A stretch of 64,000 nt of DNA from Fundidesulfovibrio magnetotacticus. GTDB taxonomy: Bacteria > Desulfobacterota > Desulfovibrionia > Desulfovibrionales > Desulfovibrionaceae. Under the pieces are notes generated by a model, which ran no database searches, had not been told where the DNA came from, and saw only the letters and a list, made by a program, of their open reading frames with translations. Position 1 is the stretch's first letter, and the number at the start of each line of letters is the position of its first letter. Where the stretch lies: the NCBI RefSeq assembly GCF_013019105.1, contig NZ_BLTE01000002.1:1-64000 (forward strand), read 5' to 3'. The translations under genes were made by a program, and so were the position numbers. Shown here one piece after another: positions 20,518 through 47,269 of this stretch.

Positions 20518-20590
20518 AATGCCCTCGGAAGAAAGAACTTGAAGCAATGAACGTATTTTCCATGAATCTGCTAATGGACACTGCTCTTCA

Positions 20591-20619: not shown

Positions 20620-20640
20620 GTGAGCATCAACTATATTCTG

Positions 20641-22999: not shown

Positions 23000-23030
23000 C
23001 AACCCCAGCAACCTTCACCTGCGCATAATG

Positions 23031-23264: not shown

Positions 23265-23409
23265 CACCAGGGCTTCCTTTTTTACAGATGCAGGTTCCTG
23301 CGCATGCTCTAGGACCTGTGATGCCACTGTACAAACAATCGTAGTTTACTTCCCGCATGCAAAACAAGATGTTTGATAATTTGCCTCGATATGTTTAAGG
23401 CAAATCAAT

Positions 23410-25002: not shown

Positions 25003-25192
25003 TGCATTCACCTCACAACACAATAAATTACTAGCGCGACTTGAACTGCCTGATCAATAAATCATTTCAAAACATACCATACGCGCCCCAGGAAGGCTAC
25101 AGACACCGATTGTAGCCAGGCCAGGGCTTCTTTGACGGATGCTTTCCAACCAAGCCAGAGACAATTTTACGATAACACTCTGTTATTTCGTT

Positions 25193-25909: not shown

Positions 25910-25912
25910 GCC

Positions 25913-28203: not shown

Positions 28204-28222
28204 GGACGATTCCCCTTGACCG

Positions 28223-28822: not shown

Positions 28823-28836
28823 AGACTTTCCCTCGT

Positions 28837-28860
28837 TTGTTAGTTATTGCTAACTAACAA
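28837..28860 (-). promoter_or_regulatory. TetR-type operator
   Basis: Perfect 10-bp inverted repeat TTGTTAGTTA / TAACTAACAA with a 4-nt spacer, 15 bp upstream of the TetR start codon. Confidence 0.8.
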
Positions 28861-28918
28861 TGGTGAGGGTGTTTGTCAATCCGGGTTGGCGATTGCCCTT
28901 CTTAACCTCGAGCTCACA

Positions 28919-29020
28919 TCCAAAGCGGCAGTGGGTTCGTCAGCCAGAACGACATGAGGACGGTTAGCCAACGCACGAGCAATGGGCACACGCTGTGCTT
29001 CGCTTCCGGAAAGCCTTGAT
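28919..29020 (-). pseudogene. Fragment of a second ABC-exporter ATPase
   Basis: 102 bp matching 25359-25460 at about 92 positions, same orientation. Read on the minus strand it gives [20 protein letters not shown] and then [10 protein letters not shown], i.e. signature and Walker B with the second signature Gly changed to Ser. Most differences are third-position, so the fragment came from a functional relative. It is cut off at both ends between the TetR operator and the hcp promoter. Confidence 0.8.
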
Positions 29021-29028
29021 TACTTCTT

Positions 29029-29042
29029 TTGACTTATGTCAA
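29029..29042 (+). promoter_or_regulatory. CRP/FNR-family (Dnr/HcpR-like) binding site before hcp
   Basis: Palindrome TTGAC-TTAT-GTCAA, the 5-4-5 shape bound by CRP/FNR-family regulators, 137 bp upstream of the hcp start. Regulators of this family commonly control hcp and NO reductase genes. If it acts at -41.5, transcription would start near 29077. Which regulator binds is not encoded in the window. Confidence 0.6.
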
Positions 29043-29178
29043 GGATACTATCGGAGACGAGTGGGACGATCATCGGCAACAAGGTGAGAAAAAGAAGCTG
29101 TGCATCGTCGCGCCCGCCGGAACTGAACCGAACCAAAACACGCTTGAATCACTGGACAATCAACCACAAGGAGGCGCG

Positions 29179-30840
29179 ATGTACTGCTTTCAATGCCAGG
29201 AGACGGCAAAAAATACCGGCTGCACCATCAAGGGCATGTGTGGAAAACCCGAGGAGACTGCCAACCTTCAAGACCTTTTGATCTTCGTGTTGCGCGGCAT
29301 TGCCGTGTATGGTGAAGGTCTCAAGGACCTGGGGCAGCCTGACCGTTCAAACGATGACTTCGTGCTTCAGGGTCTGTTCGCCACTATCACCAACGCCAAC
29401 TGGGACGACGCTCGTTTCGAAGGCATGATTGAAGAGGGTCTGAAGCGTCGCGATGCGCTCAAAACAAAGTTCCATGAAGCCTACAAAGCAAAGCATGGGA
29501 AGGAATTCAGCGATCCTTTGCACGACGCCGCCACCTGGCGCGGCCCATCCTCCTCTTTCACCGAAAAAGCGAAGACTGTGGGCATCTTGGCAACGGAGAA
29601 CGAGGATGTGCGTTCCTTGCGGGAATTCCTTATCATCGGGCTCAAAGGCGTAGCCGCCTATGCCGAACACGCAGCCATACTTGGATTCCGTAAACCGGAA
29701 ATCGACGAATTCATGCTTGAGGCTCTGGCATCAACAACTAAAGACCTGTCTGTGGACGACATGGTCGGTATGGTGATGAAAGCCGGTGAAGTGGCCGTGA
29801 CTACCATGGCCCTGCTGGACGAGGCCAACACGAGTAGCTACGGGCACCCGGAGGTAACCCATGTCAATATTGGCGTAGGCACGAACCCGGGCATCCTCAT
29901 CAGCGGTCATGATCTCAAAGACATGGACGAACTGCTCAAGCAGACCGAGGGTACGGGCGTGGATGTCTACACCCACGGCGAGATGCTCCCGGCCAACTAC
30001 TACCCGGTCTTCAAAAAATACAAACACTTGATCGGCAACTACGGCGGCTCCTGGTGGCACCAAAATCCCGAGTTCGAAGCCTTCAACGGCCCCATCCTGC
30101 TGACCACCAACTGCCTGGTGCCGCTCAAGAAGGATAACACGTACCTCGGCCGCCTCTACACCACAGGGGTAGTCGGCTACGAGGGTGCCACGCACATCCT
30201 GGACCGTCCGACCGGCGGGGCCAAGGATTTCTCGGCCATGATCGCCCAAGCCAAGAAGTGCGCGCCGCCCACCGAACTTGAAAAGGGAGCCATCGTCGGA
30301 GGTTTTGCCCACCACCAAGTCATGGCTCTGGCCGACAAGGTTGTTGAGGCCGTCAAGTCCGGCGCAGTCAAGCGCTTCGTGGTAATGGCCGGTTGCGACG
30401 GCCGTCAGAAGTCCCGCGAATACTACACTCAGGTGGCCGAAGCTCTGCCGGAGGACACCATCATACTCACGGCGGGCTGCGCAAAGTACCGTTACAACAA
30501 GTTGAACCTCGGCGACATCGGCGGCATCCCGCGCGTGCTGGACGCCGGCCAGTGCAATGACTCCTATTCCCTGGCTGTCATTGCACTGAAGCTCAAAGAG
30601 GTCTTCGGTCTCGACGACATCAACAAGCTGCCCGTGTCCTACGACATTGCTTGGTACGAACAGAAGGCAGTGGCCGTGCTCCTTGCCCTCCTGTTCCTCG
30701 GAGTAAAGGGTATCCGGCTCGGCCCCACGTTGCCGGGCTTCTTGTCCCCGAACGTGGCTAAGGTCGTCATCGAGAAGTTCGGCCTGAAACCCATAGGCAC
30801 GGTACAGGACGACATCGCGGCCATGATGACAGGCCAGTAA
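29179..30840 (+). CDS. hcp: Hybrid cluster protein (hydroxylamine reductase)
   Basis: 553 residues. N-terminal class I cluster motif C3-x2-C6-x8-C15-x5-C21 ([14 protein letters not shown]). Later conserved segments bind the hybrid 4Fe-2S-2O cluster ([42 protein letters not shown]). The protein reduces NO or hydroxylamine and takes part in protein S-nitrosylation under anaerobic nitrosative stress. The start ATG at 29179 has AAGGAGG four bases upstream; the frame is open further but unlikely to be used. A strong terminator follows, then the NO reductase gene. Confidence 0.95.
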
Positions 30841-30844
30841 AATG

Positions 30845-30870
30845 AAAGGGGGAGCTTCGGCTCCCCCTTT
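30845..30870. terminator. Bidirectional-looking terminator after hcp
   Basis: AAAGGGGGAGC-TTCG-GCTCCCCCTTT, an 11-bp perfect stem with a UUCG loop, five bases past the hcp stop. Confidence 0.9.
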
Positions 30871-30958
30871 GCCATTAAACTGAAGCGAGTTTCTTCAAGT
30901 CTTGTTGAGCTTCCCAACTATTTGGGTGTATTGTTTTGATCAAACGAGGGAGGAAAGG

Positions 30959-33196
30959 ATGACGAGTCCAAAAGTAAAGGCAGTTCTCCTATTTTGTCTC
31001 GCGTTGACTTTCGGCATACTTATCTTTGGAGGTTATGCCATCAACAAGGGCAAACCACCAATTCCCGTCAAGGTTCTGGATGATTCCGGCAACGTCATGT
31101 TCACGGGCGAAGATATCATCAGCGGCCAAAACTATTTTTATAGCAGAGGTGGGCAGCATATCGGAACCATCTGGGGACATGGCGCGTATCTAGCACCTGA
31201 TTGGTCGGCAGATTTTTTACATCGCATGGGTCTCTTTCTGGCCGCTAGACACAGTGGGCTTGACGCTACACAAGCTAGCGCGCTCACCCATGACGACTTC
31301 AAAAAATTAAACCCCGTCGAACAGGCCCGGCTTCAAGTTTTAGTCACTCAGGAAATAAAAAAGAACCGCTACGACCCCAGCACCGGGGTACTGACATCAA
31401 CGAAGTTTCAGACCGAAGCGTTTAAAGCTTTGAACGCCTATTACACGGAGCTCTTTCAGAACGGAAACGATCGCATGGGCTTGCAGCCGGGGATCGTCAG
31501 GAATGCGGAAGAAGGTCGCCTTGTAACAATCTTCTTCTCATGGCTTTCTTGGGCTGCCGGGACACAGCGGCTTGACGCAGAGCACACCTACACGACCAAC
31601 TGGCCATACGACCCCTTGGTCGGCAACGTAGCTCTGCCAGACTTCCTTATTTGGTCTATTGTCAGCGTAATTTTACTTATTTTCGGCATTGCAGGTTCAC
31701 TGTTCGTTTATCAACGATACATTGGCCAAGGAGATGAGGGGAATAAGCTTAATCTCGACTTCCCAGAACCAACTCCAACTCCAAGCCAGAAAGCAACGCT
31801 TATATATTTCTTGACAGCGATCATACTGTTTACACTACAACTCAGTTTTGGAGCGGTAACAGCCCACTTCACTGTTGAGGGAAATTCATTCTTCGGGATC
31901 CCCATATCTTCGTTCTTGCCATATGCAGCAGTCAGAACATGGCACATCCAACTGGCAATTTTTTTCATCGCCACATGTTTCTTGGCAGCAGGCCTCTTCC
32001 TTGGGCCGTTTGTTGGCAAGGAGCCCCGGAGACAAGCTTTTTGGGTTTTTGCACTTTTTGGTGCGTTAGTAATCGTTGTACTTGGAACACTTAGTGGAAC
32101 ATGGCTTTCCGTCTCTGGATTTTTCAATGGCGATGGGTTTATGTTTGGCCATCAGGGATACGAATTCATCGAACTTGGTCGATTTTGGCAAGTGTTATTG
32201 ATTGTTGGAATGATAGTTTGGCTTATTCTTGTGTGGCGAGCAATACAACCAGCAATACGTGACGAGCATGATAATGGCGGCCTCACGCATATGCTTCTGT
32301 ATAGCTCCATATCTATACCACTTTTTTACATGGCAGGTCTGCTCTATGGGAAAGGAAGCCACCTTTCTGATGCAGAATATTGGAGATGGTGGGTAGTTCA
32401 TCTTTGGGTAGAAGGATTTTTTGAGGTTTTTGCTACAGTTGTCATGGCTTTTTTACTTTCGCATATTGGCGCTGTAAGCAAAAGATTTGCTCTTACCAGC
32501 GTTTATTTTATTGTTTTTTTATATCTCGGCAGCGGAGTCATCGGCACGTTCCACCATCTGTATTGGAGTGGTTCCCCGACCATCATCATTGCCCTCGGGG
32601 CGGTATTTTCCGCTCTGGAGGTTGTCCCTCTTTCGCTCTTGGGGTTCGAAGCCGCGCACAACCTTCGGACTGTAGGCGCAGGAGGCAAGGATTTCGCCTA
32701 TAAGTGGCCCATCTATTTCTTTGTGGCTGTTGCATTTTGGAATCTAGTTGGAGCAGGAGTATTTGGATTCTTGATAAATCCGCCAATTGTACTCTATTAT
32801 GCACAGGGCATAAACACCACACCGATCCATTCGCACGGGGCTCTCTTTGGTGTGTACGGCATGCTCGCCATCTCTCTTATGCTCTTTTCCGTTCGTCATA
32901 TCATCACAAAAGCTTCTTGGTCAGACAGGCTCTTGAAATGGAGTTTCTGGGGGCTTAACTGCGGCTTGGCAGCCATGATGATATTTAGCCTCATACCGTC
33001 AGGATTTTATCAGTTTTACCACGCCATCAAGGAAGGCCTGTGGTATGCGCGCAGCCCGGAAATCGCTTCTAGCGAATTCATCCGCACGGTGACATGGATG
33101 CGAGCGCTTCCAGATGTTGTATTTGCTGTTGGGGCTTTTTCCCTGTTGTTGTTTTTGTTGCGTGGGATATGGCTGAGTTATTTTAAAAAATCATAA
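30959..33196 (+). CDS. norZ: Quinol-dependent nitric oxide reductase (qNor)
   Basis: 745 residues, the length of single-subunit qNor. An N-terminal TM plus a periplasmic cytochrome-c-like domain without haem (about 30-215) is fused to a 12-TM haem-copper-oxidase core. Conserved sites seen: HLWVEGFFEVF, GTFHHLYWSG and IHSHGALFGVYG, which supply haem and FeB ligands. It reduces 2 NO to N2O with quinol at the inner membrane. The start at 30959 has GAGGGAGGAAAGG directly upstream. Follows hcp on the same strand, separated by a terminator, so it probably has its own promoter; a TTTGATCAAA palindrome lies about 20 bp before the start. Confidence 0.93.
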   Translation: MTSPKVKAVLLFCLALTFGILIFGGYAINKGKPPIPVKVLDDSGNVMFTGEDIISGQNYFYSRGGQHIGTIWGHGAYLAPDWSADFLHRMGLFLAARHSGLDATQASALTHDDFKKLNPVEQARLQVLVTQEIKKNRYDPSTGVLTSTKFQTEAFKALNAYYTELFQNGNDRMGLQPGIVRNAEEGRLVTIFFSWLSWAAGTQRLDAEHTYTTNWPYDPLVGNVALPDFLIWSIVSVILLIFGIAGSLFVYQRYIGQGDEGNKLNLDFPEPTPTPSQKATLIYFLTAIILFTLQLSFGAVTAHFTVEGNSFFGIPISSFLPYAAVRTWHIQLAIFFIATCFLAAGLFLGPFVGKEPRRQAFWVFALFGALVIVVLGTLSGTWLSVSGFFNGDGFMFGHQGYEFIELGRFWQVLLIVGMIVWLILVWRAIQPAIRDEHDNGGLTHMLLYSSISIPLFYMAGLLYGKGSHLSDAEYWRWWVVHLWVEGFFEVFATVVMAFLLSHIGAVSKRFALTSVYFIVFLYLGSGVIGTFHHLYWSGSPTIIIALGAVFSALEVVPLSLLGFEAAHNLRTVGAGGKDFAYKWPIYFFVAVAFWNLVGAGVFGFLINPPIVLYYAQGINTTPIHSHGALFGVYGMLAISLMLFSVRHIITKASWSDRLLKWSFWGLNCGLAAMMIFSLIPSGFYQFYHAIKEGLWYARSPEIASSEFIRTVTWMRALPDVVFAVGAFSLLLFLLRGIWLSYFKKS

Positions 33197-33206
33197 AACC
33201 AGAAAG

Positions 33207-33237
33207 AGGGGAGGGGCCAACTTGACCTCTCCCCTTT
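33207..33237 (+). terminator. Terminator after qNor
   Basis: Stem AGGGGAGGGG/CCTCTCCCCT (33207-33216 with 33226-33235), then TTGG. The tail is short of T, so termination may be partial. Confidence 0.6.
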
Positions 33238-33614
33238 GGACTCAACAGCAAAAGCATGGCCATCAAACGAAGGGCGTGCGGGGACCGGAACCGGAAGCAC
33301 TTCATGACCGCCATCTACTTCTTCTGCGGCACCTCGACCTCTATCCCAAGCATGCCTGAGCCCGGTTACCCACGGAAAACCCGGAATGACCAGCTAAACT
33401 ATGCAAGCAACTTATCTTGTCAAAAACTGCAAACCTTGCCTTTCTGAGTAGAAGGATTGTCTTTACTAATATCATCATAAAACGCCTTTTCACACTTATT
33501 GCAAAAATAGACATAATTATCTGCTTTTGCATAACAGGAAAGCTGGCGGCCTCAGCCCGCACGAACTCTGTTTTCCAAAAAAATAACACGGCGATTACTT
33601 TTTTTACACAGAAT
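33238..33614. other. Cargo/backbone boundary of element B, no gene
   Basis: Short frames only, none with a ribosome site. This separates plus-strand cargo from the minus-strand element backbone. Confidence 0.45.
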
Positions 33615-33655: not shown

Positions 33656-34834
33656 TTATGCTGCTGGCTCAAGGCTGGGCAACTTGCTAACTGCCCGTTC
33701 TTTCTCACCTTCCAAGTAGTGATAGTACACGTCCGCCGTCATCTTCACGGTGCTGTGCCCCATCAGCTTCGACACCGCCGCCAAGTCAGCTCCGTTCGCC
33801 AGCATCGTCGTTGCGAAGAGATGGCGCAGGTCATACATCCTGACATCCACGGTGATTCCAGCCTTCACGCAGGCCTTGTTGAAGCTCTTGCGAATCGTCG
33901 TCACCGGCTTCCCGTCGTATTCGACGATGTACCCAGACCTTGAAAACCTCCTCATCTCTCGAAGGCGATCCAGAAATGCCGCCGTCACCGGGACAGTCCG
34001 ATAGGTCTGCGTTTTGGTAGCGAAAATCCGCACCGTGCCAGCGCCGAAATCCACATTTTCATAGCGCAGGGCGAAGAGCTCCGAAGGACCAGGCCGAGTC
34101 CCGAGGTTAAAGCAGACCTCCATGGCCCACCGGACATGAGGCTCAGCGCACTCCATGATCCGGCGCAGGTCATCAACTCCGACCTGGACGTCCCGAGGTT
34201 TCTCCTTGGCTTTCTTCCGACCCTTCATCGGGTTCCTGGCAATGAGTTCCATCTCGATGCCGAAGTTGAAGATCGCGTCGAGGTAGTCGCAGTAGCGATT
34301 CACGCAGGACTGGGACCGTGGCCTTTTCGTCTGATGACTGATCCCTTGCATCTCCTTGATGAACGGAACGATGTCCTTCAGGTAAGTCATGCCCTCGACC
34401 AGGGTGTCCCGACCAAGGATGTCGAAGAACATGCCCTTGAGCAGGTTCTCGAGATTGGCGATGTGCTTCGGCGTCCGACCCGACACCCGAAGGTGGTCCA
34501 GGTACATCATCGACAACTGACCAAAGGTGACCCCCTTGGCAGGGACGGCAACAGCAGCCACCGTCGCTACCGACGTCGCCAGCGGCATTTCAGCCTGGAC
34601 TTCTCCAGGCCCATCCACTGGCTCTTCCTGGTGCGCAACCGGGTCCGACACCGCCTCAACGACCTGCTCCTCCTGCACAGGTACGTGCACGTTCGCTTTC
34701 GCTTGCTGGATCGCAAGATTAAACGCCTCAGCCTGGAGACGGGCCAACTCGCCCCTACCGAAGGACTTGTCCCGCCTCTTACCTTCTTCGTGCCAATAGA
34801 CCATGAACCGTCCATCGCGTTGATAGACGCCCAT
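33656..34834 (-). CDS. Tyrosine site-specific integrase of element B
   Basis: 392 residues. N-terminal arm-binding region (1-50), an Ala/Pro/Glu/Val-rich linker (about 50-100) absent from the element A enzyme, core-binding domain (about 100-200) and catalytic domain. Catalytic residues: R247 (NLGTRPG), R337 (YDLRH, first His replaced by Tyr), H360 (LMGHST) and Y370/371 (ADVYYHY). It shares ADLAAVSKLMGHST with the A integrase. It probably recombines the same tRNA core but reads different arms (GCCAAC). Last gene of the element B backbone. Confidence 0.92.
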   Translation of the reverse strand: MGVYQRDGRFMVYWHEEGKRRDKSFGRGELARLQAEAFNLAIQQAKANVHVPVQEEQVVEAVSDPVAHQEEPVDGPGEVQAEMPLATSVATVAAVAVPAKGVTFGQLSMMYLDHLRVSGRTPKHIANLENLLKGMFFDILGRDTLVEGMTYLKDIVPFIKEMQGISHQTKRPRSQSCVNRYCDYLDAIFNFGIEMELIARNPMKGRKKAKEKPRDVQVGVDDLRRIMECAEPHVRWAMEVCFNLGTRPGPSELFALRYENVDFGAGTVRIFATKTQTYRTVPVTAAFLDRLREMRRFSRSGYIVEYDGKPVTTIRKSFNKACVKAGITVDVRMYDLRHLFATTMLANGADLAAVSKLMGHSTVKMTADVYYHYLEGEKERAVSKLPSLEPAA

Positions 34835-35195: not shown

Positions 35196-35753
35196 TCACA
35201 ATGCGTTGAGGAGAATTTCTTCCACCTCTTCGTCCTGCACCCCAAGATACCTTCGCGTTATCGAGGGGCTACTGTGATTGAGCCTCTTGGCCAACAACTC
35301 CCATGAAACACCAAATGTTTTGCGTTGATGGTAACACCACGTCTTTCGCAGTGTATGCGCTCCAAAGTTGCCTTGAAGATTGATCTCGTCGCACCATCGC
35401 TGCACCATCATGGTGACAGCATACGTGGTCAGCGGATAATTCTTCCCCTTGCGGCTCTTGAACAGGAAATGTTCATCTTCGAGTTTCGAGGTTGCAAGGT
35501 GCTCGGCGAGAGCAGACTTAATTTCCTTGTTCATTATGAGGATGTTCTCTTTGCCAGTTTTCTTTTCCTTGAGGCAGACGCGGTCGCCAATCTTGCAATA
35601 CTTCACGTCTGACACCTTCAAGGCCAATATGTCTTGGACCCTGAGCCCAGAGTTCACCCCCATGGCAAACAGTAGCCGGTTACGCGGCTGATCCGCCAAG
35701 AGCTTCTTGATGCTCTTGATGTTCTTGAGGTCGATAATGGGCTCGACTTTCAT
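35196..35753 (-). CDS. Short FimB-like tyrosine recombinase, element B
   Basis: 185 residues and collinear with 6967-7524. Same catalytic set (SGLRVQD, EKKTGKE, HTLRKTW, RLNHSS, RRYLG) and near-identical blocks such as FLFKSRKGKNYPLTT. Start at the ATG at 35753, with AGGAGG five bases upstream; the longer open frame lacks a ribosome site. It has no core-binding domain. Its conservation exceeds that of the other backbone proteins shared by A and B, which suggests a fixed target common to both. Confidence 0.88.
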   Translation of the reverse strand: MKVEPIIDLKNIKSIKKLLADQPRNRLLFAMGVNSGLRVQDILALKVSDVKYCKIGDRVCLKEKKTGKENILIMNKEIKSALAEHLATSKLEDEHFLFKSRKGKNYPLTTYAVTMMVQRWCDEINLQGNFGAHTLRKTWCYHQRKTFGVSWELLAKRLNHSSPSITRRYLGVQDEEVEEILLNAL

Positions 35754-36060
35754 GAGCACCTCCTTTGCAACGTTGTTTTTCGTTTCCAAACCCAACGAAA
35801 TCGTAGATTCAAAACCGGGGCTACTTGGGACCGTCCAGCTAGGGCTGGAGTATCCCGTTGTAATACAACATCTTATGCAGCAACGCGCCTCCAATGTACG
35901 ATTCTATCTATTATAGTTCTTTCCTCCGTTATAGAGTCGTCGCATTATACCAATCATATCTGTATTACTTTGTGCATTCTGCCAGAAAATTGAAGTGACC
36001 ATTTGAGAGGCTGCGAATCAGAAGTTATGTTGCACGGAGGACGGAAAGCAGGATTCAAAC

Positions 36061-36109: not shown

Positions 36110-36493
36110 TCAGATCACCGTCAGGATGATGCGATTGTCTTCGACAGTGACGGCGAACTCGTCGCCTTCATTGACGTCAAGGCTGCCCAGATCAAGCTTG
36201 TTGACGTTGATCCGCACCTCGCCCTTCTTGTTGACGTAGGGACGTGCAGAACTCTTGAGATAGAGCCCTTTGACGTCGTAGAACTGCCTGTCCTGGCTGA
36301 TGAGTTTGAGGACGAAGTGCTTGAGTGTCGGCTTATGCGTAATGTTCATCTTTTCCATGATGGACTTCGCGTCAAGACCTTCCCTGATGCACTCCCTGAG
36401 AAGCGAAGCATTGTACTTCGACTCAGGGCGCTTCTTTTCGCCCACGCCATCGAACTCTTCACCCTCAATGGGCTGAACCTTCTTCGCTGACAT
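36110..36493 (-). CDS. HTH plus AbrB-like regulator of element B
   Basis: 127 residues, homologous to 7798-8163. Conserved segments are ESKYNASLLRECI, SIMEKMNITHKPTLKHFVLK, YDVKGLYLKSSARP and the AbrB-like hairpin VNEGDEFAVTVEDNRIILTV. It lies between the origin-like region and the short recombinase, as in element A, and a copy of the recurring GC-rich cis-element lies about 100 bp upstream. Likely a transcriptional switch of the element. Confidence 0.7.
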   Translation of the reverse strand: MSAKKVQPIEGEEFDGVGEKKRPESKYNASLLRECIREGLDAKSIMEKMNITHKPTLKHFVLKLISQDRQFYDVKGLYLKSSARPYVNKKGEVRINVNKLDLGSLDVNEGDEFAVTVEDNRIILTVI

Positions 36494-38115: not shown

Positions 38116-39990
38116 TTATTTAGGACTGGTCCTTCCCCGTCCGTCCCAAAAGGATTTGGCACTGAAGCAGTACATTGGCACTATTACGTTCTTCGACTCG
38201 CCAGCAGTTTTAGGGATGACGACCTTTCGCTGATACCCTTTGGACCAGTCATCGGTGATGAGCCAGCCCTTGTCCTTCCAAAGACGGACCATTTCTAAGG
38301 CTTTAAATCCATTCTTTCTAAGAATATCATCCAGAAACGTTTTCGTTACCCCTACGAATGTCCATTCTCCATCGTCAGTCACGTCGCAATACGCTCCATG
38401 CATGTCACCAGACCAAGGGATATTTTGACGCGCCTCGGCAGGTGAATACACTCGATGCTGATTACTGTTGATCCATTCTTCGACACATTCAAATGCCTGA
38501 GAAGCGACATCGGCTGATTTTGATTCGTTCATGGCCCTGGACCACACAGAATCGAGTAGGATTCGAACTGGCGTGCTCCGTTTCAGTTCAGGTAGAGCCG
38601 CATGGATGATTGCAATCGCAGTAGCGACAGCGGCGAAGTATTCACCAAGACGCATTTCAATGGATGTCAAATCAGGCAGTTTCGTAAGAAGTTCATTCGC
38701 CTCAGCATACGCTTCCTTCCAAAGGGGCCATTGATCCCGGTGGTCCAGGATGAACTGAACCATGCGATGTCCAGCATGGCCGAAGTGGTCAGTGACCACG
38801 CCCTTGATCCTGGTGACGACTGCTTTGCTCTCGGCGTCTGTCCTGAGGAAAGGGTTGCCCCAAAGGTCGATGATCCTGCCCCTGGCTCCACCGTCTGTAC
38901 TCAGGTCCAGGCTTGGCGTCTCTCCGGTTGAAAAAAGGATGGTCCTGAACGGTTGCACCCGATCAGAGCCATGGAGAGTCGCGCGGGCCTTGTCCCGGCC
39001 AGATGCGATCATGTAGATGGTGTCGGTGACGAGGTCGCTGCCGTACTTGTTCCTTTTGTTCTGCAATCTAGCCAGCTTGGTTTCATCCAGGAAAAGCGGC
39101 AGTCCATTGAGCAGCGCCGCCATCCTACCGATCCTGTTGTCGGTCCCGTTCCAGGTGTTGATGAACGAGCCCGCATACGGAGCAGGATTTCCCCATGCCG
39201 ATGCCGCCAGCATCAGCGCGGTGGTTTTCCCTGAAGAACTTGGAGCACAGAGTTCGAGTGTGAAGTTGTCCACCCCCAGGATCGGAAGCAATGGCGCGGC
39301 CAAGGACGTGTACAGCGCAAAGGCGACGTCAGGATATTCCAGCGCCTCATTGACCATGGAGGCCCAGGCGGCGAAGCTTCCCTTTTGAACAAAGCCGCTT
39401 GCGAATTGCTCATCTCCCTGGTCGGCACCCTTGAAACGAACCACCGGGGCCTGGCCGGGAAGTTTACCGGCGGAAGTCCCACTCAAGTACGAGTGCCCCC
39501 AGAGAAACCCCGCCATGTCCTCGGTCCAACCCAGGCGGCCGTCCACAAACGTCTTCGGGATGTTGCCACTGTTAACCCGATCATATTCTTGAAGATACTC
39601 GATGATGCCATTTGCGTTAATGCTCGTGACGGGGAAGTTGTAATTTGCCAATCCGACAATGCTGGTCTTGCTTGCGATGACCCCGCGTTCAATTTGATGC
39701 TGATGCCACCTCCCGTCGCGCATCCAGGCCAATGTGACATAATGCAGCCCCGTAGACCTGTTCTCCGAACATTCGCTAATCACGATTGGGCATGGTGAAA
39801 GCCGTATCCCGCCTGCATCAGTCGATTTCACAAGGCTCAGGTCCTTCGCAAACAGATACCGATGCGGCAATTCAGACGCATTTGATACTGGCGCATTGGG
39901 AATACGCTGTCGAATGTTAATCGTCTTAAGAACTGTATCCTGAGCAACTGCGCTCATGCTGCTTGTGTTGACAGTTTGATTCGTATTCAT
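38116..39990 (-). CDS. DUF927-type replication ATPase, element B
   Basis: 624 residues. N-terminal region, then the DUF927 ATPase core with Walker A APSSSGKTT near residue 250, Walker B LPLFLDETK and an arginine-rich DNKARATLHG-like loop (SGRDKARATLHGSDR). DUF927 proteins are helicase-like ATPases of plasmids and integrative elements. I start at the ATG at 39990 with AGGA eight bases upstream; a GTG at 40053 would overlap the radical SAM stop but lies before a hairpin. It ends 6 bp before the iteron array. No TOPRIM or primase domain is seen. Confidence 0.75.
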   Translation of the reverse strand: MNTNQTVNTSSMSAVAQDTVLKTINIRQRIPNAPVSNASELPHRYLFAKDLSLVKSTDAGGIRLSPCPIVISECSENRSTGLHYVTLAWMRDGRWHQHQIERGVIASKTSIVGLANYNFPVTSINANGIIEYLQEYDRVNSGNIPKTFVDGRLGWTEDMAGFLWGHSYLSGTSAGKLPGQAPVVRFKGADQGDEQFASGFVQKGSFAAWASMVNEALEYPDVAFALYTSLAAPLLPILGVDNFTLELCAPSSSGKTTALMLAASAWGNPAPYAGSFINTWNGTDNRIGRMAALLNGLPLFLDETKLARLQNKRNKYGSDLVTDTIYMIASGRDKARATLHGSDRVQPFRTILFSTGETPSLDLSTDGGARGRIIDLWGNPFLRTDAESKAVVTRIKGVVTDHFGHAGHRMVQFILDHRDQWPLWKEAYAEANELLTKLPDLTSIEMRLGEYFAAVATAIAIIHAALPELKRSTPVRILLDSVWSRAMNESKSADVASQAFECVEEWINSNQHRVYSPAEARQNIPWSGDMHGAYCDVTDDGEWTFVGVTKTFLDDILRKNGFKALEMVRLWKDKGWLITDDWSKGYQRKVVIPKTAGESKNVIVPMYCFSAKSFWDGRGRTSPK

Positions 39991-40010
39991 TTCGGATTTC
40001 CTTTGAAGAA

Positions 40011-40038
40011 GGGCCACCAAGCTTTCACTTGATGGCCC
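40011..40038. terminator. Hairpin between radical SAM and DUF927 genes
   Basis: Stem GGGCCACCAAG/CTTGATGGCCC. On the plus strand TCTTTT follows; on the minus strand TTCTTC follows. It lies 11 bp past the radical SAM stop and 20 bp before the DUF927 start. Confidence 0.65.
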
Positions 40039-40049
40039 TCTTTTAACGC

Positions 40050-40991
40050 TCACCGCTTCAGCCAGATCACTGCTGCGTCATTGACGTTGTACCCGTCACC
40101 ATCAGAGTAAACCAAAATCTTGAGCTTATCCAAACAGCCCCTGGAGATGGCGGCATTGGTTGCGGTATTGATCAAGTCTTCAACATACAATTGATGAAAG
40201 TGAGATGACCGGATCATATCGAATTCGTGAGCATGCAATCCATACCCTTTCTGTTGAAGCGCCTTGGCGCAGTTGACGATTCCAGGCCCTCGCGCATTCA
40301 AAGGTTCAGTCCAAATCGTTTCTGGTTTTGCAGCCAAAACAGAATCGAGCATGCTTTCGTAGTCTGATTGCGACGTGCCAATACCAGGCAGAACTGGACA
40401 TATCATTCCGTAGGTTCGAATGCCCATGTCCCGAGCCAGATGCAGGGCTTGCAAGCGTTCGGTGATGCTGGAGGCATTCGGCTCGATGATCTTCGCGAGG
40501 TGCTCATTGTGAACCGGAGCTGTGATGCTCAGTCCAACCATCACCCTATTGCGATATTTCGATATCAGGTCAAAATCATACGCAATAGATGCGCTCTTCG
40601 TGAGAATCCGTACGGAGCAGGTGCTCTTGGACAAAATCGTCGACAAAAGATGACGCCCAAGATCGCGCTCCCGTGCTTCTGGAGCCCAGCAATCCGTTAG
40701 CGTGCTCATCATCACGACATCGTTACTATCAAGCTTCATGCTCTGGCGTTGAACACGCAAATGTGTCCACAAGTCGACAATAGCTGTTCCGCTTTCAAGG
40801 GCAGCAAAAGACGTGATCTTGTTCTCCTTGAAAAATCTATGCGTTCTTATCAGCGACGGTGTTGAACAATACTTGCACGCATGGCCGCAAATCAGTCCGC
40901 AATTTACAGCATGCGTAGCCAATTGCTTTTTTGCAAACTCATTCGAAAGAGTGATTCCGATGTTCCTTTGGCATGTTAAGACGTTACTCAT
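40050..40991 (-). CDS. Radical SAM protein of the spore-photoproduct-lyase-like group
   Basis: 313 residues. Cluster motif C35-x3-C39-x2-C42 (CGHACKYC) with an extra Cys at 31. Later landmarks match the SPL/COG1533 group: MMSTLTDCWAPEARERD, VRILTKSASI, VGLSITAP, EPNASSITERLQAL and ICPVLPGIG. This group includes DNA photoproduct lyases and many enzymes of unknown substrate. Start at the ATG at 40991, with GGGGG five bases upstream. It lies directly upstream of the replication ATPase, a rare partner. It may repair or modify DNA or tRNA of the element; substrate unknown. Confidence 0.8.
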   Translation of the reverse strand: MSNVLTCQRNIGITLSNEFAKKQLATHAVNCGLICGHACKYCSTPSLIRTHRFFKENKITSFAALESGTAIVDLWTHLRVQRQSMKLDSNDVVMMSTLTDCWAPEARERDLGRHLLSTILSKSTCSVRILTKSASIAYDFDLISKYRNRVMVGLSITAPVHNEHLAKIIEPNASSITERLQALHLARDMGIRTYGMICPVLPGIGTSQSDYESMLDSVLAAKPETIWTEPLNARGPGIVNCAKALQQKGYGLHAHEFDMIRSSHFHQLYVEDLINTATNAAISRGCLDKLKILVYSDGDGYNVNDAAVIWLKR

Positions 40992-41779
40992 TAGCACCCC
41001 CATTGATCATTGTTTTCTGACACTGGCCGACGCAATTGATCCTTGCGACCAGATTTCAGCACTCTAATGGGGATATATCTTTATTGCTTTGTTCCGTTAG
41101 AACATCAGCAAGGGGTAAGGCCAGAAAGGTGCTCGGTGTCGAAAGGTGTCCGGGGAACGGACCAGGAGCAACCCCGACGTCGGAGACTCTGGCAGAAACG
41201 ATTTACCACCAGACACTCGAAAATGAGGGAGTGGTGCGGAATATCCCGAAGTTTGACTTTATTACTTCCCACGCGAGGACAGAGTTGCGCAGGATATTCG
41301 CCATATGTTCCCACTCCTACTCAAAGCGACTCGCAGCTATTTCACACTATTTTCAGATGAAATTCGTGCGGTGCCATCCAGAACCATGGCGTGCAGCAGT
41401 GAGCACGGCTAACCACCCCTGGCGCTTTCAATGAGCGAACCAAAGGGATCAGAGACCGAGGCGAGAAGGGGTGGACAGGACAGGAAGCCCGAGACGACGA
41501 AGTGGGCGGCGTTGATTCCCGCCCCCATGGTTCTCCTTCGGGTCGGGGCTATGTCTTCCCTGGGGCTGGCGTCAGCCAAGATGGCCCCCGAGGGGCGGAC
41601 CAGAGACATGACAACAACACGCCCATCCCGCTTGGACAGCAAGAAGGAATTTTGCGACCGTCAGTAGCCATCAGCACGCTTGGCATGCCTCTGTCTGGAT
41701 CGGCCGATTTCAGCGCCATAATGAGCCTACCGATTATGCGTTTCGAAAGACGGCATCCAGCCACAACCTCCTTATCCTG
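40992..41779. other. Intergenic region of element B without a convincing gene
   Basis: 788 bp. A frame at 41431-41667 (plus) lacks a ribosome site and is rich in Pro/Arg/Gly as random GC-rich DNA is. The upstream promoter of the radical SAM gene must lie here. GC-rich segments near 41530-41600 recall the recurring cis-element but do not share its words. Confidence 0.4.
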
Positions 41780-42169
41780 TTAATCATCTTCCGCCAGCAT
41801 GATCGTCAAACAAGGTTCATAATTGTCGCCAGGACCAATATGCGCGATTGCCTCGATAGTCTCCTTCCTGCCTGGGGCCATCAGAAAGTCGACCTTGAAG
41901 GTGACCCTGTCGGTGTTGACGGCGCGTCTGGCGGCGAACAAAGCCAACGTGAGCACGTCATGGAGTCTACCTGTGACGCTTTGGCCAAAGCTCCCGTCTA
42001 GGCCGGCGGGCGGTTCGATATAGCGATGGAAGATGGTACCGGTAATGACCGTGTGAATCTTAAATCCAATCTGTTTCGCCTGCTCGGTGACGTCTACGAG
42101 TACGCCGTCGGCAATCGCTTGTGCCCTTGAATATTCGAACACGACGTTCCAATCCTTATCAGGCGTCAT
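41780..42169 (-). CDS. DUF6573-like protein, element B
   Basis: 129 residues, homologous to 12784-13167 of element A: YSRAQAIADGVLVDVTEQA, GRLHDVLTLALFAARRAV and IAHIGPGDNYEPCLTIMLAE align well. Start at the ATG at 42169 with AGGAGG six bases upstream; it overlaps the end of the preceding small gene. Function unknown. Its retention in both elements marks it as backbone. Confidence 0.75.
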   Translation of the reverse strand: MTPDKDWNVVFEYSRAQAIADGVLVDVTEQAKQIGFKIHTVITGTIFHRYIEPPAGLDGSFGQSVTGRLHDVLTLALFAARRAVNTDRVTFKVDFLMAPGRKETIEAIAHIGPGDNYEPCLTIMLAEDD

Positions 42170-42383
42170 TGCTAGCCTCCTGAGATTTCGAAGACAGTAT
42201 CTCATCAAGCTTGCGTCGAAAACAATTGCAAAGAACAAGACCAACCTCGCCATACGACTTAGTAAAGTCTCCAGAAACTTCTGGCGATGACTTGTCCATT
42301 ATTTTGAAAAGCTGTTCTATTGGACGAAATACGGCTACGAGTTCGTCCTTCAATGCAAGACTATCGAGCTGTTGTGGCTCCAT
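42159..42383 (-). CDS. Small helical protein
   Basis: 74 residues (MEPQQLDSLALKDELVAVFR...), all helical and acidic-basic mixed, family unknown. Start at the ATG at 42383 with GGAGGAGG four bases upstream. It overlaps the DUF6573-like gene by 11 bp, so the two are co-translated. It occupies a position similar to the coiled-coil gene of element A but is not clearly homologous. Confidence 0.55.
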   Translation of the reverse strand: MEPQQLDSLALKDELVAVFRPIEQLFKIMDKSSPEVSGDFTKSYGEVGLVLCNCFRRKLDEILSSKSQEASNDA

Positions 42384-42413
42384 TTGACCTCCTCCCATGC
42401 ATACCGCAGTGAT

Positions 42414-42464
42414 AGCTTTGGGGAAGGATACCCTGGGGCGAAGGGGCTGGTCACGGGGAGGCAC
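42414..42464 (-). promoter_or_regulatory. Recurring GC-rich cis-element, copy B2
   Basis: CTTTGGGGAAGG, then CCCTGGGGCGAAGGGGCTGG and TCACGGGGAGG. The GGTCACGGGGAGG word is shared with A1 and A2. It lies 30 bp upstream of the 42383 start, nearer than the other copies. Confidence 0.4.
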
Positions 42465-42479
42465 TCTTATCTTTGCACC

Positions 42480-42515
42480 AAAAGAAAGAGCAGCCGAAGG
42501 CTGCCCTTTCTTCAT
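42480..42515 (-). terminator. Intrinsic terminator of the TGT-like gene
   Basis: Stem GGGCAGCC-TTC-GGCTGCTC with flanking AAGAAA/TTTCTT extension, followed by TTTCTTTT on the minus strand, 20 bp past the stop at 42535. Confidence 0.85.
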
Positions 42516-42534: not shown

Positions 42535-43422
42535 CTAGAGGATCAACGGGTTGGATTTGTGGAGATCAGTAACAACACATTCAATTTGCCTGTAGTAGAG
42601 CATACCCAGAACGGCACGATTGCGCTGGCCATGAATGCCAATCAAATCTTGAATTTTATACCCAACATTTCTAATAAACATTTTAAAATCATCGAGGCTA
42701 TCATACATATCGTATCTCACCGTGCCGTCTTTAGTGCCATCAAGCTCATTAGGGAAATACAGCTTGTCTGTCTTGTTGAAGGCACTTTTCTTGCTGTTCC
42801 AGTAACGGACAATACCTGTCTTGGCGTCATCGAGCCATGACTTTGAATCACATGAATTCACAGGACATCCTGTGATTAATTCAAACTTTGTAATGCCAAA
42901 CAAATGAATCTTTACATTGACATCATTCAGGCCAAACACTTGAGGAAAGAGCACCAGGGGATTTGCCTTGCCTTCCTGCTTTCCAATTGCGATCGAATCG
43001 CATCCGATGCTCTGGTAGACTCGCGCCTCCAACCCTGACTTCATGCTATGAATCACAGGGACAACGTTCAAGCCGATCTTCTTCAACTTAAGATAGTACA
43101 GCAGGTTTTTCATGAGGCCATGCGCATCGAAATCAGGGTCATAGCTAAACACAAGATCAAATAAACCATCATTGAGCCTCGCAAACTCTTTGTACTGTGC
43201 ATAGAGCTGACTTTCCGTGAGCCCGAGGTTGGAGTTGTTCAAGCTAAATGCACCACAGTCTAACGCTTTTTTATTGACTATCGAGCTATATCTCTCGAAG
43301 TAGCTGTGCATTCCTACGGGCATTCTTGCTCGAGTCAAAAGTATGTTAAACTTTTGTCCAGGGCAGCGAGCAACAAGTTCGTCCATTACCTCGTCCGTCG
43401 GTGAAGACAAATAGATGTCCAT
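42535..43422 (-). CDS. TGT/DpdA-like base-exchange enzyme homologue
   Basis: 295 residues. A TIM-barrel sequence with hallmarks of the tRNA-guanine transglycosylase superfamily: D55 in LDCGAFSL (DSGGFQ-like), VVPVIHSM, SIAIGKQEG, HLFGITKFEL, and a second Asp in CDSKSW (D192), where DpdA-like phage enzymes have VDSTSW. Both catalytic Asp positions seem kept. The C-terminal zinc site of tRNA enzymes is not evident. DpdA relatives put 7-deazaguanines into DNA; here no preQ0 synthesis genes are present, so a host precursor or another base is needed. Start at 43422 has GGAG six bases upstream. Confidence 0.65.
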   Translation of the reverse strand: MDIYLSSPTDEVMDELVARCPGQKFNILLTRARMPVGMHSYFERYSSIVNKKALDCGAFSLNNSNLGLTESQLYAQYKEFARLNDGLFDLVFSYDPDFDAHGLMKNLLYYLKLKKIGLNVVPVIHSMKSGLEARVYQSIGCDSIAIGKQEGKANPLVLFPQVFGLNDVNVKIHLFGITKFELITGCPVNSCDSKSWLDDAKTGIVRYWNSKKSAFNKTDKLYFPNELDGTKDGTVRYDMYDSLDDFKMFIRNVGYKIQDLIGIHGQRNRAVLGMLYYRQIECVVTDLHKSNPLIL

Positions 43423-43441
43423 GATTTTCTCCGAAGCGGCC

Positions 43442-43462
43442 CCCCTGATTTGCAACCAGGGG
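43442..43462 (-). terminator. Hairpin before the TGT-like gene
   Basis: Stem CCCCTG/CAGGGG (43442-43447 with 43457-43462), between the stop at 43482 and the start at 43422. No T-run, so it may attenuate or process the message. Confidence 0.4.
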
Positions 43463-43481
43463 AGCCACATTGATGTTTCAG

Positions 43482-44627
43482 TTAGGCCCTGGGAGAAAAA
43501 GCAACCTTCTCGAAGTCTTCCAGCGCCGCGATCAATGCATCGTAGTTCTCACGGTTCACATTGTTGGCGCTGACCTTGCCACTCTTTATAGCTGCTGTGA
43601 TAATCTGGCTCGTCGTGACGAACGTGGTGTTGATGTCAGGGACTTTATGCTGATCTCCAGCACCCTTTTTCTTGCCAGGATTCGTGAGTGAAAAAACGCG
43701 GCTACCCGCGTTTTTGCTGATGCTCTCCAGATGGGCCACGGGATCGAGCCCCACCTTCTTCATCGCCTGCATTTCCTTGATGTCCGCCGCGTTAAGCTCG
43801 AACTTTTGCTCGCAGAAGGTACGAAGGGCAGGCATCGGGATAACCAGGCCCGCTTTCTTCAGCTTGAGGTCACCGATCGCGAGGGCTGCAAGGACCGAAT
43901 AGTCACACTCGAGGGCCTCAGACTTCGTTTGGACATACTCGAACACGGCTTCGAGCGGATCGTCTTCGGTGCTGAAAGGGGGATTTTCGGCGATAGGGTT
44001 CAGCTTCTTGAGCAGTGTCAGGCCCCTATGGCAGTGCCTTTCGACTTTGCGGAGGCTGGCAAGCCTCATATTCTCCTGAAGAACCTTGATGCTCTTACCG
44101 GGAAAGTACTTCATAGCCATGGGCATCCATTCGCCATGGGCCATGGAGGCTTTTATAATGTTGGCCATGCGGCCACAGATGAGAGCGCAAACCACTCGCA
44201 CCACGTCGGCCTGGACCATGACAGGGCTAAAGACGTCGTTCCAAACCCGTGCCGTGATCTCCGCTTGATTGTCTGGCGATTTGTTGGACAGGATGCCGCA
44301 GAAATCGTCGGCGAGCTTATTGAATTCCCTGACGCCCTCCTGCTTGGCTTCGCCGTCTTGACTCAGCAAGTCAAAGACGTAGCGAACACGCCGCGCCTGC
44401 TGAGTAGGATCGATAGAGGGCGTTCCTACGGCAATAGCGTTACGGGAAGACTGCGCCTCGACCTCACCGTTTGTAGCCGCCGCGTCATCAATGGGGCGAA
44501 CGACACTCGGGTCAGAAAATTGCTCCAGGCCTGGGCTAGGCCAAGGATCAATTTTTACGGAAGAATGGTGGGGGATTTCGGTGAGGACCTGGTCGACTGC
44601 CCGGTCCTCCAGATTGGCCTCGTTCAT
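43482..44627 (-). CDS. Unknown element B protein (381 aa)
   Basis: I do not recognise it. The N-terminal 90 residues are low complexity (Pro/Ser/Ala/Glu) and probably disordered; about 90-300 is helical (ARRVRYVFDLLSQDGEAKQE, VVRVVCALICGRMANIIKAS); the C-terminus has a basic GKKKGAG and then DALIAALEDFEKVAF. No catalytic motif is visible. Start has AAAGGAAA six bases upstream. It lies between the AAA+ gene and the TGT-like gene on the same strand, so the three probably act together. Confidence 0.65.
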   Translation of the reverse strand: MNEANLEDRAVDQVLTEIPHHSSVKIDPWPSPGLEQFSDPSVVRPIDDAAATNGEVEAQSSRNAIAVGTPSIDPTQQARRVRYVFDLLSQDGEAKQEGVREFNKLADDFCGILSNKSPDNQAEITARVWNDVFSPVMVQADVVRVVCALICGRMANIIKASMAHGEWMPMAMKYFPGKSIKVLQENMRLASLRKVERHCHRGLTLLKKLNPIAENPPFSTEDDPLEAVFEYVQTKSEALECDYSVLAALAIGDLKLKKAGLVIPMPALRTFCEQKFELNAADIKEMQAMKKVGLDPVAHLESISKNAGSRVFSLTNPGKKKGAGDQHKVPDINTTFVTTSQIITAAIKSGKVSANNVNRENYDALIAALEDFEKVAFSPRA

Positions 44628-44633
44628 GTGCTT

Positions 44634-44717
44634 TCCTTTGGAAGGAGGTTCTTGCGCTTCCGTCCCCGCCCCAGTGGCGAGTTTCGTTTGCGCCCACCCT
44701 CTACCCTTTCCAAAGGA
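44634..44717 (-). promoter_or_regulatory. Inverted repeat upstream of the 381-aa gene
   Basis: TCCTTTGGAA (44634-44643) and its exact inverse TTCCAAAGGA (44708-44717), 64 bp apart, in the leader of the 43482-44627 gene. The first arm overlaps the ribosome site. It could be a looping operator or an RNA stem hiding the start. Confidence 0.4.
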
Positions 44718-44771
44718 CGTGCCGCAGACAGTGATCTTGTAACTAGCTAATATTAAGTGATTTTATATTTC

Positions 44772-46469
44772 TCACTTCAAGATGACTAGCCTTTTCCTCG
44801 GCGTATAATTAAGTTTTCTAAATTTTTCATTAAGTCCATTCTTATCGAGTACTTGCGATACTCGACCCTCCGTACGGCCAGCAACCTTCGCAATTTTTTT
44901 CTGATACCCATGGGATGTTCCGAGAACAGAGCACAGCGTTTCATAATAAAGGTCTCGCAATTCATTTAATGAAATGTTTTCGATATGAATCTCCTCACCG
45001 TCTGCCTCAACTTCTTCTCCTAAATAGTAGGCCAAGAACTCATTTCCCCTGTAGTGCTTGCGCAGAGCATTTATATCAAGCAAATCATCGGTTTTAATCT
45101 CTTTAATACCTGTCAAAAACTTAGTACACTCAAGAACAACAAGCTTCATCTCTTCAGTAAGAGTGCTAAATATTTCTAGCGCTTGTGGCTCGTCATCGTA
45201 TATATAATTAACAAAGTTAATATAATTTAACTTTCCAGAGACATGCTTACAAGCACTCTCCACTGCCTCATTGCTAAAAGCCATCTGTTCTATCCGCTCA
45301 GCTATCCTTTCTTTGCTAAATTTATTGCACACAACTGAACTTTTCAAATCCAACAAGTCGCTACTAGAATTAATGTTCTGAGAAAACACAAAACAAAATG
45401 ACCAAAAACCACCGTATAGCTTTCGAAATATGCCGTTATCAACAATCTTGATTCTTTCTCCGATCGACGAAACTACATATTCAACCGTATTGTTCAGATC
45501 ATTTTCAACAGACCCGACTATCACTGAAGAAAAACTGTCCAGGCCCAAGCGAAATTCATCAAGGACTGCCTCAATGCATTTAACATTAACGCCGCCTTGC
45601 TTAAGTCTCAACACCAGTTCACTCCCTTTGCTGAAGCAAAAAGAACCCTCTTCAGATCTCTGGCGAAACAATGCGCTGTATTGTTGACGATGAAATGCCT
45701 TGACAGTAAACTCAAATTTATCATCCTTTATGAATTTATTTCTTCTGGCATATTCAATATTTTCACGAATAGCATTGCATACGCTCTCTACCTCTCTGAC
45801 ATTCCCTGGCCAATTATATCCGAACAGGGCCAGAACTACACCGCCTGTAAGCAACCCAATGAGTTCTTTGTCAAAGTGTTGGACATAATATATAACGTCA
45901 TACCGGCGCTTATGAAGAGGAGGAACTGCAAACGTCTCAAATCTGAACCAAAAATCTGGCCTAAATTTTTCTCGTGGAGCGTTAGTTGTTGCGACAATTT
46001 GAGCGTTGAGCCTTGTTTCTTTTGTGTCGCCAAGCGAAAAAAACACTCTTCTCTCTATCGCAACAAGAAGCTTCGCTTGAAGATTTTTTTCCATTTCTCC
46101 AAGCTCTTCTAATATTACAACACCATCTCCAGCAATTTCTAAAATTCCCTTTTTATCTTTGACAGCCGTGCTAGACGCTCCTTTCTTATATCCAAATAGT
46201 TCAGACTCCAATAATGTTTCTGGTATTGCTGAACAATTGATAGCTACAACTCTTCTCCCTGGATACTGTTTAAGATACTTGTGAACAAAGCACTCGGCAA
46301 ACATGCTTTTACCAACGCCGGTTTCCCCGCGAATCAATAGACAGGAATGCTCTCCAGCCTTTTTCTTATTTATGATCGCGTCGCAGCGAATTTCAAATCG
46401 AGCCAGCGTTTCGACTAATCCTGGCGGCACAATCCAAGACCCTGGTTCCCACGAGTAGGTGCTATCCAT
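44772..46469 (-). CDS. AAA+ protein resembling sigma-54 activators but lacking GAFTGA
   Basis: 565 residues. N-terminal sigma-54-interaction-type ATPase: Walker A GETGVGKS (48-55), NCSAIPETLLESELFG, Walker B GVVILEELGEM (usual Asp replaced by Glu) and NWPGNVREVE. The loop that should read GAFTGA reads GASSTA, so contact with sigma-54 is unlikely. The long middle (about 250-470) is unlike known domains and the C-terminus has an HTH-like segment (GYQKKIAKVAGRTEGRVSQV). AT-rich relative to the core. It heads a gene series with the unknown 381-aa protein and the TGT-like protein. Confidence 0.75.
   Translation of the reverse strand: MDSTYSWEPGSWIVPPGLVETLARFEIRCDAIINKKKAGEHSCLLIRGETGVGKSMFAECFVHKYLKQYPGRRVVAINCSAIPETLLESELFGYKKGASSTAVKDKKGILEIAGDGVVILEELGEMEKNLQAKLLVAIERRVFFSLGDTKETRLNAQIVATTNAPREKFRPDFWFRFETFAVPPLHKRRYDVIYYVQHFDKELIGLLTGGVVLALFGYNWPGNVREVESVCNAIRENIEYARRNKFIKDDKFEFTVKAFHRQQYSALFRQRSEEGSFCFSKGSELVLRLKQGGVNVKCIEAVLDEFRLGLDSFSSVIVGSVENDLNNTVEYVVSSIGERIKIVDNGIFRKLYGGFWSFCFVFSQNINSSSDLLDLKSSVVCNKFSKERIAERIEQMAFSNEAVESACKHVSGKLNYINFVNYIYDDEPQALEIFSTLTEEMKLVVLECTKFLTGIKEIKTDDLLDINALRKHYRGNEFLAYYLGEEVEADGEEIHIENISLNELRDLYYETLCSVLGTSHGYQKKIAKVAGRTEGRVSQVLDKNGLNEKFRKLNYTPRKRLVILK

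Positions 46470-47173: not shown

Positions 47174-47185
<12 letters not shown>
47145..47185 (-). terminator. Current tRNA-Ala terminator
   Basis: Stem AAGGGGTTA/TAACCCCTT (47154-47162 with 47177-47185), followed on the minus strand by AATTTTTAC. The right arm and next bases are also present at 1-12, beside att1. Confidence 0.75.

Positions 47186-47269
<84 letters not shown>

Follow-up and report, generated by a model that had tools for sequence, protein, structure and literature searches.

Enzymes of the DpdA family have been described in several mobile settings. Short phage DpdAs of about 300 amino acids (aa), found in Queuovirinae and related phages (Iggy, Vid5, yong3, AQKL99 and Acinetobacter phage HD01; PHROG 887), sit in five records with folE and queD, and with a sliding clamp zero to three short open reading frames (ORFs) downstream. 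According to excerpts of Hutinet et al. (2019; PMC6884629), singleton phage DpdAs occur without precursor genes in phages whose hosts mostly have the queuosine pathway, some hosts of DpdA phages have the transporter YhhQ in place of preQ0 synthesis, and the DpdA of phage 9g, expressed alone, brings dPreQ0 into plasmid DNA in E. coli. Bacterial dpd islands of the Salmonella Montevideo type carry a DpdA-family enzyme on a mobile island, and some BRC systems have recruited a TGT homologue beside other conflict genes (excerpts of PMC12839542). Here we analyse a 64,000-nucleotide stretch of Fundidesulfovibrio magnetotacticus DNA (the window; positions 1 to 64,000 of contig NZ_BLTE01000002.1, assembly GCF_013019105.1), in which a gene for a DpdA/TGT-like enzyme lies on an integrative element, directly downstream of a gene for a 381-aa protein, P381.

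The window enzyme is like the short phage DpdAs in size, in homology over most of its length, in the same D, D, H and D positions and in the motifs HxFGxT and CDSxSW, which most of them have. Its surroundings are unlike theirs. Pfam and PADLOC scans took in the 10 window proteins of the module and the element backbone, with the element's cargo lying outside these scans; among the 10 there is no neighbour of the phage kind, P381 stands there instead, and the element enzymes form a clade of their own. The same proteins include none of the DpdB–DpdK companions of the Salmonella-type islands (no PADLOC Dpd match at E up to 1), in agreement with a preliminary description of this locus, made from the letters alone, in which the partners were said to differ from those of known Dpd systems. 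The enzyme also falls far below the cut-off of the DpdA equivalog model. BRC systems have PglZ, HerA/FtsK, DUF4007 and, in a subset, GNAT (excerpts of PMC12839542), none of which was found by Pfam among the 10 proteins. Singleton DpdAs share with this locus the lack of precursor genes, but they are described in phages, with no partner gene mentioned in the excerpts of PMC6884629, whereas here the enzyme lies on integrative elements together with P381. No description of such elements was found among the top-ranked matches in the open-access literature (titles and starts of abstracts, with most subscription papers outside). We know of no described DpdA that has a genetically fixed partner like P381.

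Family placement of the enzyme

Three ORFs lie on the minus strand where the preliminary description had placed them, at 42535-43470, 43482-44627 (381 aa) and 44772-46469 (565 aa). The first is the longest frame of the enzyme gene. Its likely start is Met17, at base 43422, which has GGAG about 9 bases upstream and whose alignment column holds Met in 37 of 43 homologues. With translation from that start, the numbering D55 and D192 given earlier for the two presumed catalytic residues is right, and the landmarks HLFGIT and CDSKSW named with them are both present.

Homologues were collected by searching 297 genomes of the window's order (Desulfovibrionales) with a three-sequence profile, which found 42 enzyme places in 21 genomes, the window included, with at most six per genome. 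The 43 loci analysed are the window, 40 neighbourhoods from the order and two from elsewhere in the phylum; one fragment (G375:C4:77829) was left out. Alignments hold the enzyme of 37 loci and the P381 of 36, near-duplicates and fragments being omitted. Outside the order the family is rare: five of 395 genomes drawn across the phylum carry it, and three of the five, the window genome being one, are from the window's own taxonomic family.

Five residues, S6, D55, D95, H173 and D192, are invariant in all 37 aligned element enzymes, at a mean column identity of 33%, and the last four are also invariant in five of five phage DpdAs (H173 may correspond to the hallmark His196 of the literature). Comparison of the element family with these five phage DpdAs by hhalign gave a probability of 99.6 (E 2.1e-24, 272 columns), and PHROG 887, annotated 'queuine tRNA-ribosyltransferase', matches the window enzyme with E 5.8e-15. 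Against eight canonical tgt proteins the probability was 0.26, close to two negative controls (0.16 and 0.14), a negative that is limited by the shallowness of the comparison, since phage DpdA itself reached only 2.99 with the same set. The canonical TGT model TIGR00430 finds one gene in the window genome, on another contig, and not this enzyme. The window enzyme lacks CxCxxC, which we take to be the zinc motif of tRNA TGTs. Pfam at E 0.1 gave no match for the enzyme, to TGT or otherwise, and none for the 381-aa protein; sequence searches of the PDB, whether with the enzyme alone or with its family, gave no TGT match.

With tblastn the window enzyme matched only 8 phage records, and two further family members matched 119 and 144, many of those listed being annotated as DpdA or queuine tRNA-ribosyltransferase; plasmid tblastn with two family members gave no match. 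Viral contigs scanned with alignments A4 and A7 yielded 7 and 5 loci, partly overlapping, which are remote phage relatives, while scans with single proteins and with alignments A1 and A6 found nothing, and a scan of genome contigs with three sequences found a single relative. A tree of 48 sequences separates the element enzymes, as a single clade, from the phage enzymes (support 0.83). Judged by its sequence, the 42535 enzyme is a full-length relative of the short phage DpdAs, the closest relatives found, and is not a canonical tRNA TGT; its earlier assignment to the DpdA side of the family is borne out.

Pairing of the enzyme with P381

All 43 loci have, immediately upstream of the enzyme gene and on its strand, an ORF of 100 aa or more (gap -32 to 150 bp), and 40 of these ORFs join by single linkage at E 1e-3. 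When each member was held out along with all relatives more than 40% identical to it, the remaining P381s recovered 41 of the 43, missing L006, which is cut by a contig end, and L077. The 5,615 ORFs of the fetched loci gave no unrelated match, and the only other hits were in L064 and L065, where they fall on the longer pieces of the P381 gene itself. By these profile relationships P381 is one family. In L064 and L065 (genomes G421 and G498) P381 is split into two ORFs, and the pair may be inactive there.

Across the 297 genomes, all 42 enzymes are preceded by a P381 match at a distance of at most 800 bp, and an enzyme was found downstream of 44 of 47 P381 hits (42 of 45 distinct places). The P381 profile was built from enzyme neighbours, and the second count is the less circular figure. 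The stretches fetched around the three hits without an enzyme, two in G491 and a weak one in G575, contain no enzyme ORF, short or long. Two relatives of P381, at L133:5575-6501 and L134:5993-6871, have no TGT found nearby, and L133 has a divergent AAA+ gene related to that of the window. The preliminary description had given the enzyme both an AAA+ protein and the 381-aa protein as partners. The latter is regular; the AAA+ gene is present in only 9 of 43 loci, and we reject it as an obligate partner.

Domain searches gave P381 no common assignment. Pfam matches at E 0.01 were to EspA in two of 36 members, to DNA_Packaging_2 in one and to the FokI recognition domain in one, the last being marginal (E 0.0098). 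PHROG matches fell into five families with one member each, and PDB matches were weak and scattered. DUF3102 was tried and rejected: none of the 36 members matched it at E 0.01 or better, one homologue scored 14.2 bits against a cut-off of 24.4, and it was found in 0 of 99 genomes.

The divergence of the pair was compared with that of the element's small tyrosine recombinase, INT232, in the 35 loci that have an INT232 match. Median pairwise identity was 0.29 for the enzyme and 0.16 for P381, as against 0.64 for INT232 and 0.56 for DUF6573. Enzyme and P381 divergence were correlated (Mantel rho 0.54, 0/2000 permutations), more so than enzyme and INT232 (rho 0.13, 113/2000) or P381 and INT232 (rho 0.13, 148/2000). 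INT232 is at least 75% identical in 80 element pairs, and in 45 of these the two enzymes are less than 35% identical. Between the window and its near twin L038, the AAA+/P381/enzyme stretch had a dS (synonymous divergence) of 0.18-0.34, as against 0.08-0.15 for five other genes tested, and dN/dS (the ratio of non-synonymous to synonymous divergence) was 0.20 for the enzyme, of which L038 has the nearest homologue, and 0.32 for P381. The contrast in dS, together with the low dN/dS, fits an exchangeable cassette under purifying selection. We conclude that the enzyme and P381 are an almost inseparable pair, diverging together and nearly independently of the integrase.

Divergence as high as a median identity of 0.29 could also be expected of a TGT-fold protein that has been repurposed as a non-catalytic replication or regulatory factor acting with P381, and the poor match to named TGT and DpdA models is in keeping with this. 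The five invariant residues, which include the presumed active-site D55, D95, H173 and D192 and are held in 37 of 37 enzymes of such low overall identity, argue against it, and we consider loss of catalysis very improbable.

Alternatively, the pair could be a module of element-versus-element exclusion, immunity or a toxin–antitoxin-like function, in which each element marks itself, and DNA bearing a different mark is the target of P381 or of an unseen effector. The presence of up to six copies per genome is consistent with such a function, as are the co-divergence of the pair and its exchange between backbones in the 45 of 80 element pairs. However, no nuclease was found among the 10 proteins compared with PADLOC, in which the only matches were of the AAA+ protein to ATPase models, and P381 has no shared nuclease family, the FokI match being confined to a single member and the other Pfam matches to one or two. 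An exclusion module seems to us distinctly unlikely.

Probable precursor supply

The preliminary description saw no queuosine-precursor genes and suggested that preQ0 might come from the host. No such enzyme was found by Pfam among the 10 scanned proteins, and a host source is plausible. A queC gene scored above the cut-off in 15 of 23 enzyme-bearing genomes, including the window genome, where it is on another contig. The other eight, and only those eight, have a gene of PF02592, the family that presumably holds the preQ0 transporter YhhQ. On a contig with three enzyme copies, two partial queC matches below the cut-off lie at G375:C4:64809-65324. With queC as the synthesis gene searched for, this pattern within the 23 enzyme-bearing genomes shows a likely supply but does not establish dependence on it.

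Canonical tgt is present in 23 of 23 enzyme-bearing genomes. Together with queC or PF02592 in each, this points to a host queuosine pathway, and with the annotation of the enzyme's PHROG as TGT superfamily it would be consistent with an enzyme that modifies RNA, such as tRNA or an element transcript, instead of DNA. Against this, canonical tgt is already present in each of the 23 genomes, the window enzyme lacks the CxCxxC motif, and replication genes lie in the same loci. Moreover, the nearest relatives found are phage DpdAs, and the 9g DpdA acts on DNA according to the excerpts of PMC6884629. Modification of RNA is thus, in our estimate, improbable.

The integrative element and its other genes

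Attachment site (att) copies at 19440-19484 and 47194-47238 place the enzyme on a 27.8-kb element, 19440-47238 (Table 1). With its tyrosine recombinases and att repeats at a tRNA gene, this is a site-specific integrative element. A second element, 1-19484, stands in tandem at the same tRNA-Ala; it has an INT232 relative (6970-7548) and a DUF6573 protein and lacks both the enzyme and P381. Its 676-aa ORF at 9756-11786 resembles, by eye, a replication ATPase.

Table 1. Positions of features in the window and, where a locus is named, in related loci
Feature	Position	Strand	Remarks
Outer att of second, TGT-less element (1-19484)	1-65	+	exact 65-bp copy of 47174-47238
Left att	19440-19484	+	exact 45-bp copy of tRNA-Ala end
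Tyrosine integrase (INT392)	33656-34834	-	weak AP2 match at N-terminus
Small tyrosine recombinase (INT232)	35196-35894	-	
127-aa backbone protein (u127)	36110-36493	-	36/43 loci
DUF927/Cch-like replication ATPase of element	38116-40053	-	
Radical SAM protein	40050-41003	-	resembles PA0069/Rv2578c/mobile-pair-B families, below their cut-offs
DUF6573 protein, backbone gene	41780-42253	-	33/43 loci
118-aa ORF (u118)	42159-42515	-	recurrent beside DUF6573, 21/43 loci
DpdA/TGT-like putative base-exchange enzyme	42535-43422	-	295 aa; longest ORF to 43470; D55, D95, H173, D192 kept
381-aa partner (P381 family)	43482-44627	-	directly upstream of enzyme, 59-bp gap; helical in low-confidence model; no Pfam, PHROG or PDB family
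Sigma-54-activator-type AAA+ protein	44772-46469	-	565 aa; degenerate GAFTGA loop (GASSTA)
Intact tRNA-Ala(GGC)	47194-47269	-	47194-47238 is the right att copy
Longer, possibly TGT-like ORFs	L084:9724-11031, L086:5637-7061, L094:10373-11686, L096:5503-6846, L100:3246-4553, L083:15329-16831, L102:11292-12605		

The 43 loci, chosen for their enzyme, share further genes: INT392 in 37, INT232 in 34, p635 in 25 and DUF927 in 5. One p635 member was scanned and has PrimPol and Replicase domains. The occurrence of these replication genes, p635 and DUF927, in the same loci was counted in favour of DNA modification. In the reverse direction, we took the 68 INT232 places with the highest scores (cut at E 1.6e-92, leaving out weaker matches), and in 32 of them the enzyme lies on the same strand, 1.9-8.0 kb upstream. 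The enzyme/P381 pair recurs as a module across a family of integrative elements. Relaxase and type IV secretion genes were absent from the 10 proteins scanned with Pfam, the left-hand cargo (19440-33600) being outside that scan. Within the window cargo, ORF 29029-30840 resembles, by eye, a hybrid-cluster protein and ORF 30902-33196 a quinol nitric-oxide reductase, which suggests nitrosative-stress cargo at 29029-33196. A blastp cluster of flagellin genes is found in 14 of 43 loci (L040, L042, L045, L046, L048, L051, L052, L057, L064, L065, L070, L072, L075 and L077), upstream of the enzyme in nearly all of them and often between DUF6573 and P381; the one scanned, that of L057, has PF00669, PF00700 and a laminin-G-like insert.

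The AAA+ protein contains a PF00158 domain (E 1.4e-36). Its loop reads GASSTA in the window and in L038, and an exact GAFTGA, presumably the loop motif of sigma-54 activators, is kept in five of ten aligned sequences, the window being among the ten. As an occasional neighbour it is possibly a regulator. In 12 of 43 loci, where 6.1 would be expected, P381 is preceded by a site that resembles a -24/-12 promoter and scores at least 8, the best being in L045 and L049; upstream of the window P381 there is only a background site, and sigma-54 control of the pair is not supported for the window. The radical SAM gene is present in 5 of 43 loci and also directly follows a longer enzyme in L084, L086 and L096 (the genes of L084 and L096 were checked).

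These longer enzymes came from 20 fetched INT232 places without a short enzyme, out of 36. Seven hold an ORF of 435-500 aa that the family profile matches weakly (E 2.9e-7 to 2.3e-3); the other 13 hold neither a short nor a longer enzyme, three of these being stretches of at most 9 kb. The longer ORF is on the opposite strand from the integrase in L083 and L102. In five of the seven it follows a 482-620 aa protein (a D5/DUF5906 helicase in the two scanned) and an uncharacterized 250-290 aa protein. Invariant residues that the longer proteins retain include DSGGYS, and the profile of these proteins matched the short family with probability 89 over 74 columns, compared with 2.5 for the phage DpdAs. 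Kinship of the longer proteins with the short enzyme is possible but unproven. A sliding clamp was tried as their partner; the test was weak (hhalign probability 0.20 with a single template; empty PDB search) and gave no support.

Discussion

Exchange of a base in DNA for a host-supplied 7-deazaguanine is the best reading of the module, and we regard it as reasonably probable. By analogy with the phage DpdA experiments of PMC6884629, and with TGT chemistry, the enzyme would remove guanine from DNA with D192 as nucleophile and D55 as acid/base, and would insert a 7-deazaguanine drawn from the host's queuosine supply, either preQ0 itself or a relative obtained by salvage. P381 would bind DNA or the replication machinery and aim the enzyme at chosen sites. 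The mark would most likely shield the element from host restriction, or label it as self, during excision, replication or movement. The rapid divergence of an exchangeable pair would then reflect changing target sites or opponents.

Several observations weigh against this interpretation. Structure prediction, proposed earlier as a check on the enzyme, gave a mixed answer. Five viral structures matched the model at E 0.001 or below, and two of these, including the best one, are named as queuine tRNA-ribosyltransferase, the best being from a phage. The model itself is poor (mean predicted local distance difference test score, pLDDT, 44.5), and its PDB matches are mostly generic barrels, none with E below 0.001, so a TGT barrel is at present only weakly supported. 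The P381 model is poor too (mean pLDDT 42.6), and no recognizable DNA-binding fold was found in P381 by Pfam, PHROG and PDB comparisons. On the DpdA equivalog model NF041059 the window enzyme scores 15 bits against a cut-off of 200; Vid5 DpdA scores 17 bits on the same model and Iggy DpdA does not match it. Many elements of the family do without the enzyme, as 36 of the 68 highest-scoring INT232 places lack a short enzyme upstream, and exchange is incomplete, as the integrases of the 24 closest enzyme pairs (at least 60% identical) are also similar (median 0.81). With canonical tgt in all 23 genomes, and only enzyme-bearing genomes compared, a precursor supply is expected anyway. Finally, the results here do not separate DNA from RNA as the substrate. 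We infer that it is DNA, as we infer a role for P381 and a mark that protects or labels the element as self; P381 is probably DNA-targeting.

An extension of the DNA-modification interpretation is that P381 is a fast-evolving specificity subunit. Each element would then write its own 7-deazaguanine pattern, and the elements resident together in a genome, up to six, would be told apart by it, in a form of epigenetic self-marking by base exchange. We consider this rather unlikely, though somewhat less so than the alternatives weighed above.

The findings suggest that these islands use a host-supplied base to mark their DNA or to protect it. If this is true, 7-deazaguanine modification of DNA, known from phages and dpd islands, would also occur in small integrative elements, and the enzyme and P381 would offer a simple two-gene test of what gives a DpdA its sequence selectivity.

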